In this document: positions 13,439-14,898 of the stretch, piece after piece
Layout: each line of letters starts with the position of its first letter
Position numbering within the stretch: position 1 is the stretch's first letter
From: Rhizomicrobium sp.
GTDB lineage: Bacteria; Pseudomonadota; Alphaproteobacteria; Micropepsales; Micropepsaceae
DNA: 64,000 nt
Direction of reading: 5' to 3'
NCBI GenBank assembly: GCA_037200045.1
Contig: JBBCHM010000002.1
Location: 124,001 to 188,000 of the forward strand
Translations under genes and position numbers: made by a program
Notes under the pieces: model-generated
Told to the model about the DNA's origin: nothing
Database searches by the model: none
What the model saw: only the letters and a program-made list of their open reading frames with translations

Positions 13439-14898
13439 CGCTTCTCGATCTTTTCGAGGCCGCCCATATAGGGCTTCAGCGCGTCGGGGATGGCGATGGC
13501 GCCGTCGGCGTCCTGGTAGTTCTCCAGGATCGCGATCAGCGTTCTTCCGATGGCCAACCCTGAACCGTTCAGCGTGTGCACCGGGCCTTTGCCCTTGCCG
13601 TCGGCGCCGCGATAGCGGGTGTTCATCCGCCGCGCCTGGAAGTCGCCGCAGTTCGAGCAGGAGGAAATCTCGCGATAGCGGTTCTGCCCCGGCAGCCAGA
13701 CCTCGATGTCGTAGGTCTTGCGCGCCCCGAAGCCCATGTCGCCGGCGCACAGCGTCACGACGCGATGGCGCAGATCGAGGCTTTTCAGGATCGCCTGCGC
13801 CGCATCGGTCATGCGCTCGTGTTCGGCGTTGGACTGTTCCGGCGCGGTGATGGAGACGAGCTCGACCTTGTCGAACTGGTGCATGCGGATCATCCCGCGC
13901 GTGTCCTTGCCGGCGGCGCCGGCCTCGGAGCGGAAGCAGGGCGTATAGGCCGTGAAACGGATCGGCAGCTCGGCCTCGGCGAGGATTTCGCCGTTGACGT
14001 AGTTGGTCAGCGGGACTTCGGCGGTGGGGATGAGCCAGAGGCGTTCAAAGTTTTTTTGGAGCTCTTCCATTGAAGCACTTCGAAAAGCTTCGTCGAATGC
14101 AACTTCGTCATTGCGTAACAGAAGAAGATTTCGAACTTCGGGTCTCGCCAACGCTCTTTTGTTTGCCTCGAAAATTTTCGCAATCTGGCTCATCGACTTG
14201 GTAGTCGAAAAGAGCTCTTCCTCAAATTTTGGAAGCTGGCCCGTACCAAACGCTGCTTCGTCTCGCACCAACATTGGCGGTACGATTTCTTCGTAGCCGA
14301 ACTTCGTCGTGTGGCTGTCGAGCATGAAGCTCGCCAGGGCGCGGTTGAGGCGGGCCAGCGCGCCCTTCAGATAGACGAACCGGGCGCCGGAGACCTTCGC
14401 GGCGCGCTCGAAATCCATCAGGCCGAGCGTCTCGCCGATCTCGAAATGCTCCTTAGGCTGGTTGATGCCGGAGGCCGGGATGCGCGCCGCCTTGAAGTCG
14501 CGCTCCGGGACCGGGACGTTGGCGTGCTCGTCCTCGCCGTCCGGCACGTCCGCGGCGGGGAGGTTCGGGATGACGGCGAGGAGATTCTTGAGGTTCTCTT
14601 CAAGCTCGCGCTGTTTCGCCTCGCCGGCCTGGATCGCGTCCTTGATGGCGGCGACCTCGGCCATCAGCGCGGCAGCGCCCGCCTCGTCCTTTTTGGACTT
14701 GGCCTGGCCGATCAGCTTCGACGCCTCGTTGCGGCGGGCCTGTTTCTGCTGCAGGTCGGTCAGGAGCGTGCGCAGATCCTCGTCGGCGGCGAGGATCTTC
14801 CGCGTTTCGGAGACCGCGCTCTCGGCATAAGCCGGCCGCCGCGCCAGGCCTGAGACGAAGGCGTCGGTATTGTCCCGGATGAATTTGATGTCGTGCAT
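13435..14898 (-). CDS. serS: Serine--tRNA ligase with in-frame insertion
   Basis: SerRS charges tRNA-Ser. The 487-residue protein has the N-terminal coiled-coil arm (about residues 30-105) and a class II core with [30 protein letters not shown] and the C-terminal [16 protein letters not shown]. The start [10 protein letters not shown] is the conserved one, ten codons inside the longest frame. It is about 55-60 residues longer than usual. The excess (about residues 231-286) falls between LPKFEEELF and [10 protein letters not shown], where normal proteins have only a few residues. The DNA there (about 14041-14290) uses AT-rich codons unlike the rest of the gene. Confidence 0.95.

Follow-up and report, generated by a model that had tools for sequence, protein, structure and literature searches.

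Recurrent turnover of dissimilar in-frame inserts at one turn of seryl-tRNA synthetase in Alphaproteobacteria

Introduction

Aminoacyl-tRNA synthetases count as core enzymes that evolve slowly, and repeated movement of a segment between lineages would not be expected of such a housekeeping enzyme. Recombinational exchange of a non-homologous or diverged centre between conserved flanks is known from other kinds of genes, e.g. the target domains of type I restriction hsdS and mosaic penA, while the Rickettsia palindromic elements are in-frame, AT-rich inserts in conserved alphaproteobacterial genes that form within-genome repeat families. The locus described here, an insert in the seryl-tRNA synthetase (SerRS) gene serS, differs from both. 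Whereas hsdS and penA face DNA targets or drugs, the serS cassette lies in the catalytic domain of an essential cytoplasmic synthetase, and unlike the Rickettsia elements it occurs in single copy, with no inverted ends beyond those of shuffled sequences.

The gene product shares both domains, many invariant residues and the overall fold with bacterial class II SerRS, but the three best bacterial PDB sequences listed have a short turn where it carries a 57-residue insert. Apparently the same place is occupied by insertion II of the cytosolic SerRS of higher eukaryotes (human G254-N261), as judged from gap positions in the PDB search: the second aligned stretch starts at chain position 260 in human 4l87_A and at position 282 in the query. 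The human insertion is reported to be near the active site and to have a negligible role in aminoacylation (PMC10817482); it comprises 8 residues and is described as a higher-eukaryote trait, whereas the inserts reported here comprise 32-116 residues and are exchanged between lineages. That SerRS can be a target of antagonism is illustrated by the natural antibiotic albomycin, against which a divergent second SerRS (serS2/abmK) confers immunity on the producer (PMC9032320). There resistance comes from a second gene, while here the single housekeeping gene varies. In the literature searched, with subscription papers mostly outside its scope, no description of a bacterial SerRS with hypervariable inserts was found.

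The serS gene and its insert

The window, i.e. the whole 64-kb stretch of DNA analysed, carries serS on the minus strand. Four features are referred to below.

13435..14898, minus strand: serS, seryl-tRNA synthetase, 487 aa (Pfam PF02403 and PF00587, SerRS fold)
14038..14208, minus strand: hypervariable insert, S231-L287, 57 aa, GC3 0.46, three predicted helices
14209..14265, minus strand: 19 conserved codons ([19 protein letters not shown]) 5' of the insert, whose synonymous codons change with the insert
13978..14037, minus strand: conserved 3' flank ([14 protein letters not shown]...), less affected, with 100% nucleotide identity to L002 over 20 codons

The open reading frame spans 13435-14928, and placing the start at the conserved MHDIKF (14898) gives a protein of 487 residues. 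In this one chain the N-terminal tRNA-binding arm domain (PF02403, E 5e-23, residues 1-112) and the class II core (PF00587, E 3e-41, residues 279-459) were both found above the Pfam cut-offs. A fold search with the predicted structure returned a list filled by SerRS structures, which match the protein outside the insert, the best being 6r1n (Z 41.9 over 415 residues). Since serS has only one match in its own genome (G000, 4.73 Mb, 96% complete), its product presumably performs the aminoacylation of tRNA-Ser. The window gene is denoted L001 below, and the gene of the sister genome G028 is denoted L002.

Residues 231-287 follow EEELF and precede WLIPTAEV; relatives that lack an insert have 6-10 residues in this place. 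A first-pass annotation made from the letters of the window had claimed some 55 extra residues in the catalytic domain (14041-14300, residues 231-286), and this position is right to within a few bases and residues. Its description of foreign-looking codons that reach into the conserved codons on the 5' side, in a reading frame that is kept, is equally borne out. The frame is open. GC3 amounts to 0.46 for the insert and 0.50 for the 30 preceding codons, as against 0.90 for the 30 following codons and 0.91 for the remaining gene. In windows of 150 bases GC dips to 0.44-0.50 over 14000-14299, as compared with about 0.67 just outside the affected stretch, and in 180-base windows the insert is the lowest-GC spot of the entire 64 kb (minimum 0.43).

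One conceivable reason for such a composition is an overlapping gene or RNA element, and an antisense open reading frame of 97 aa does span 14003-14296. This explanation is extremely improbable. In 33 carriers, open stretches read in the other five frames have a mean length no greater than in codon shuffles (mean p 0.44-0.60), and a single low value (p 0.04, in one frame of the window gene) is expected among 165 tests. A search of 13000-15300 against Rfam gave four matches with E 0.024-0.64, all far below the gathering scores.

Variability within the genus

Among 69 genomes of the genus, sampled as one genome per species and including that of the window, 63 gave a usable gene (the remaining six were G005, G019, G031, G073, G077 and G080). 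Drafts are numerous among the genomes, but inserts are also carried by genomes in one contig (G028, G084 and G062). The site, which is one identical turn in all of them, holds 32-98 aa in 33 genomes, 12-25 in seven and 6-10 in 23. With the insert subtracted, SerRS length has a mean of 423 and a standard deviation of 12.6 (96 genes, fragments included), and most of the length variation is therefore found at the insert site. In other genera of the order, 3 of the 23 parsed genomes carry 43-47 aa, while another four of the 27 examined (G093, G105, G108 and G110) could not be parsed. Loci that did not give both flanking motifs were left unparsed (L140, L172, L174, L180, L182 and one of 80 further loci), and L031 and L032 were dropped as copies of L014 and of the gene of L138, respectively.

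An all-against-all comparison was made of 45 inserts of at least 20 residues from the genus, the family and outsiders (one duplicate included), with E-values calculated for the 45-sequence set. Most of the inserts match no other at E<1e-3. Homologous groups within the genus are L005/L114, L007/L121, L012/L016/L017, L113/L118 and a set of five with 24-25 aa, and outside the genus L034/L145/L147 and L145/L146 are similar at the same threshold. The trio L034/L145/L147 comes from a Hyphomonadaceae MAG and two other genera of the window's own family (35-38% identity, E 5e-5), a sequence similarity which suggests that cassettes are shared across families. Despite their mostly dissimilar sequences, the inserts have junction residues in common: out of 48, the last-but-one residue (encoded at 14041-14043 in the window gene) is arginine in 24 and the second is threonine or alanine in 40.

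The shared ending could also be explained by a single old insertion that has diverged in place beyond recognition under relaxed codon bias, as could the presence of inserts in roughly half of the genus genomes that were parsed. We hold this to be very unlikely, as unrelated inserts (57 and 35 aa) occur in sister backbones that are 87-97% identical upstream, homologous inserts are found in distant backbones, and synonymous divergence in the 5' flank does not follow the backbone (see below). Nor did we find the same insert with normal codon use in most relatives, which is the pattern that the first-pass annotation had linked to an old lineage trait.

A few irregular serS matches were also recorded. 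L140 (G077:C5), in a draft genome that is 62% complete, has one internal TGA. Second serS pieces occur in two drafts that each have another serS, namely L184 (G020:C81) and L185 (G097:C339); they are probably contamination and were not taken as donors.

Exchange between lineages

Backbone relationships were analyzed in a 90-row tree, which is built from serS and is hence not a species tree. By backbone, the window genome groups with G028 as its sister (support 100/99), yet their inserts, of 57 and 35 aa, are unrelated. Conversely, three pairs that share homologous inserts are rejected as sisters by AU tests run on 24 of the 90 rows, with p-AU values of 0.0088 for L005/L114, 0.0016 for L113/L118 and 8.5e-7 for L007/L121. 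The carrier state (at least 20 aa) changes at least 16 times on the full tree. The inserts are thus distributed incongruently with the backbone, and they form non-homologous centres between conserved flanks. When orthologues of G000 and G028 were compared (77 found, three of them too short; median identity 90%), serS was, by the criterion applied, the only one of 74 with a dissimilar inner segment between conserved flanks, as it had been the only one of 50 pairs in a smaller first set.

These results show that cassettes have moved between lineages and have recurrently been gained and replaced at one turn. The observation in the first-pass annotation was accordingly correct and, if anything, understated. 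Its interpretation as an import from the serS of another lineage is partly supported: replacement is evident from the unrelated insert in the nearest relative, G028, while no donor serS was found, and in place of a single event there is a site, seen across the class, that has been replaced recurrently. The main finding is this recurrent turnover.

Flanking codons

Pairwise nucleotide identities show that the 5' side is commonly replaced together with the insert. For L001/L002 they are 70 and 73% in the 20 codons 5' of the insert and 87-97% further upstream, and 100 and 100% in the 20 codons on the 3' side. L001/L003 gives 70, 67 and 67% before and 97 and 100% after, and L010/L127 gives 70 and 57% before and 100 then 70% after. 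The 3' flank is sometimes affected too, as in L004/L113 (63 and 77% before, 77 and 77% after), L117/L019 (83 and 60% before, 73 then 90% after) and L114/L019 (77 and 80% after). The pattern is diffuse in L028/L136, and L022/L124, both without an insert, likewise show 67 and 67% before the site.

At codons -19 to -1, synonyms are used fairly evenly in 30 carriers, whereas a biased set prevails at several positions in 23 non-carriers. L016, L017 and L136 were kept outside the 30-carrier counts, as their inserts have a GC3 above 0.6 and were read as ameliorated. GGC at codon -13 is found in all 23 non-carriers versus 4 of the 30 carriers, and ACC at codon -12 in 19 versus 5; positions -7 and -3 are exceptional in that non-carriers are AT-richer there. 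Between carriers, the synonymous difference over these codons is 0.61-0.65 whatever the backbone divergence (0.28-0.57), while between non-carriers it tracks the backbone (0.28, 0.40 and 0.43). Because of this uncoupling, the 5' flank behaves as part of the cassette allele. On the 3' side the difference over the 19 nearest codons is raised less, with 0.43-0.55 between carriers versus 0.24-0.45 between non-carriers. A reason for the lesser effect on this side may be that crossovers take place within the [12 protein letters not shown] stretch, which is highly conserved. That the effect is stronger on the 5' side is not accounted for by plain two-sided recombination.

The unequal effect on the flanks suggests another agent that could keep rewriting the site, namely a mobile or otherwise selfish element or the scar left by it, e.g. 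through a homing-type process with 5' co-conversion. In line with this, the 3' edge is sharp in L001/L002, in L001/L003 and in the first ten codons of L010/L127, about 20 codons on the 5' side are co-replaced, and the sequence TTC GGC ACC GGC CAG is kept in non-carriers and scrambled in carriers, much like a recoded nuclease target. Nevertheless we regard such an element as quite unlikely. The sharp 3' edge is restricted to some pairs, and the corresponding site is nearly intact in L259 (TTC GGC ACC GGC AAC) and L320 (TTC GGC ACC GCT CAG) even though both carry inserts. Moreover, the inserts are mostly dissimilar to each other, 48 of them have no terminal repeats beyond those of shuffles, no second copy exists in the genome, the readable viral loci hold no serS with a long insert, and matches on phages and plasmids stay below 60% identity.

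Coding character, structure and search for a source

Within the insert, GC at the three codon positions is 0.59/0.41/0.47, which is coding-like (30 of the 33 carriers). dN and dS could be computed for five of seven homologous insert pairs, and dN was below dS in all five, in line with constraint on the protein: 0.05/0.95 for L016/L017, 0.08/0.26 for L025/L134, 0.55/1.83 for L113/L118, and 0.40/1.46 and 0.60/1.41 for the other two. The ratio for L025/L134, only about 0.3, is compatible with weak constraint. For the window insert AlphaFold predicts three helices (238-251, 253-260 and 265-282), where the annotation had asked whether a surface helical hairpin is formed; block pLDDT is 90-93 at 241-280 even though the aligned rows include no recognised homologue of the insert. 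The prediction for the L010 insert is poor (block pLDDT 45-64). The structure alignments drew on 47 and 28 of the parsed genes.

Homologues of the window insert were sought at several levels. The best match among the 68 other genomes of the genus has an E-value of 0.028, and 386 other genomes of the class gave nothing better than one weak match (E 0.009). Ten long inserts gave nothing convincing against Pfam (best 0.015) or PHROGs (best 0.006). In the own genome (96% complete) only serS itself and three chance matches of 17-24 bases were detected. As to a donor on phages or plasmids, SerRS matches occurred in 25 phage and 97 plasmid records, all below 60% identity. A scan of viral contigs with the whole protein found 10 loci, all 45% identical, and a scan with the local region found 50. 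Out of these 50, 48 have an open reading frame with a GTGQLPKF-type motif, which in 46 is followed shortly by a PTAE-type motif; in the other two (L312 and L314) a short turn leads to LISTSE. No such frame was obtained for L286 and L318, and L315 is cut at a contig end. None of the 48 readable loci holds a serS with a long insert. L301, L307 and L317, initially matched by the 5' part only, were reread as ordinary SerRS.

Several known kinds of elements were also tried and rejected. Inteins have Cys, Ser or Thr as the first C-extein residue and a length sufficient for a splicing domain; here, W directly follows the insert in 24 of 30 carriers, including the window gene, and the insert has only 57 aa. 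For a transposon or MITE, end repeats or other genomic copies would be expected, but the own genome holds no other copy and the longest exact matches between the ends of 48 inserts are like those of shuffles (inverted 5.35 versus 5.10, direct 5.48 versus 5.10). A Rickettsia-type palindromic element would need several genome copies, and the own genome (96% complete) has no second one. The template repeat of a diversity-generating retroelement is similarly absent from it.

Occurrence in the class and phylum

A draw of 144 genomes of the class, three of them from the genus, gave 142 with a match, two of which are broken at contig ends. Split matches in this draw revealed inserts in other families, i.e. 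in G163 (63 aa), G204 (58 aa), G201 (74 aa), G236 (116 aa) and G152 (47 aa). In a draw of 140 genomes from the phylum, a split match was found in 7 of 42 Alphaproteobacteria, namely the window genome and G152 together with five further genomes (58, 64, 82, 49 and 60 aa), and in none of the 98 other Pseudomonadota, of which 95 were spanned by one match, one was unmatched and two were weak or partial. These counts are lower bounds, as shorter inserts can escape. In-frame cassettes of about 32-116 residues, mostly dissimilar and often AT-rich, occur in many lineages just before the WLIPTAE(V) motif. Three named records carry inserts, namely an alphaproteobacterial MAG (76 aa, the same insert as in L014), Xanthobacter autotrophicus AM5 (37 aa) and a Hyphomonadaceae MAG (49 aa).

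Altogether, ten sampled alphaproteobacteria outside the window's family carry inserts at the site. Six of these inserts are AT-rich relative to their genes (GC3 of insert/gene 0.36/0.94, 0.36/0.85, 0.41/0.92, 0.50/0.92, 0.61/0.89 and 0.70/0.89), and four have a GC3 near that of their own gene (0.81/0.84, 0.79/0.85, 0.91/0.94 and 0.58/0.55). L259 and L320 combine AT-rich inserts with flanks of normal codon use. L320 carries an insert of 64 aa in place of the 5 and 6 aa of its congeners L325 and L324, respectively. Its flanks are 90 and 90% identical to those of L325 on the near side of the site (before it) and 93 then 70% on the far side, and 80 and 87% identical to L324 before the site. With such normal flanks around inserts elsewhere, the recoded flank is a trait of the much-exchanged genus and not of insertion itself.

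Proposed explanation

Our preferred explanation, which we hold to be somewhat probable as a whole, is that the alphaproteobacterial SerRS, an essential enzyme, contains a hypervariable cassette open to exchange, the insert being one of its alleles. The cassette would be replaced when serS alleles from different species recombine homologously at their conserved flanks, and the insert would be retained as a mini-domain on the surface, without harm to aminoacylation. Diversifying, frequency-dependent selection would keep the cassettes diverse, its most likely driver being a putative antagonist, e.g. a phage protein or the toxin of a competitor, that binds the SerRS surface; a small-molecule inhibitor alone would not require dozens of dissimilar surface pieces. 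The low GC could stem from an AT-rich accessory gene pool together with little homologous gene conversion across non-homologous alleles. GC-biased gene conversion is argued to operate in bacteria in PMC4450053 and stated to be unobserved in bacteria in PMC8153448, and we mention it purely as an idea for why GC is low where homologous recombination is blocked. A tentative and more specific version, possible but on the doubtful side, likens serS to an antigen locus: alleles of the variable mini-domain would be older than the species and circulate among them, allowing escape from a candidate antagonist that docks at the turn.

The main rival explanation is near-neutral turnover, in which in-frame DNA captured at a tolerant turn accumulates, becomes AT-richer by drift, and is then lost or swapped with no advantage to the carrier. 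The inserts do differ freely in sequence and length, the length of the turn varies elsewhere too (6-17 aa in 76 of 79 parsed loci), and the human insertion II is reported to contribute negligibly to aminoacylation (PMC10817482). We find this rival rather unlikely. Split matches are confined to Alphaproteobacteria (none in 98 other Pseudomonadota, 95 of them assessable), and serS alone is affected among 74 orthologues, though tolerant loops would be expected in many proteins. In the shared inserts dN is below dS, a three-helix structure is predicted with confidence for the window insert, and inserts move between lineages.

If the cassette is exchangeable as preferred here, the rewriting of a core translation enzyme, seen among the sampled Pseudomonadota only in Alphaproteobacteria, points to a strong and changing pressure, and the insert used as bait, together with swapped alleles, would offer a direct handle on its source. 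The inserts are also natural examples of how many dissimilar mini-domains can be tolerated at one site of an essential enzyme, and caution would be advisable when serS is used as a phylogenetic marker in Alphaproteobacteria.

Other atypical stretches in the window

Several lower-GC islands are found at 33900-38300. Two open reading frames in this region are a presumably transposase-like one (36993-38291) and another that we take to resemble a GIY-YIG nuclease (34029-34991). Lastly, in the gene after surE (11629-12333), which by position and sequence we assume to be pcm-like, GC3 falls to 0.55 in a 40-codon stretch close to the 3' end, and a similar dip, to 0.50, is seen in its apparent counterpart in L188.
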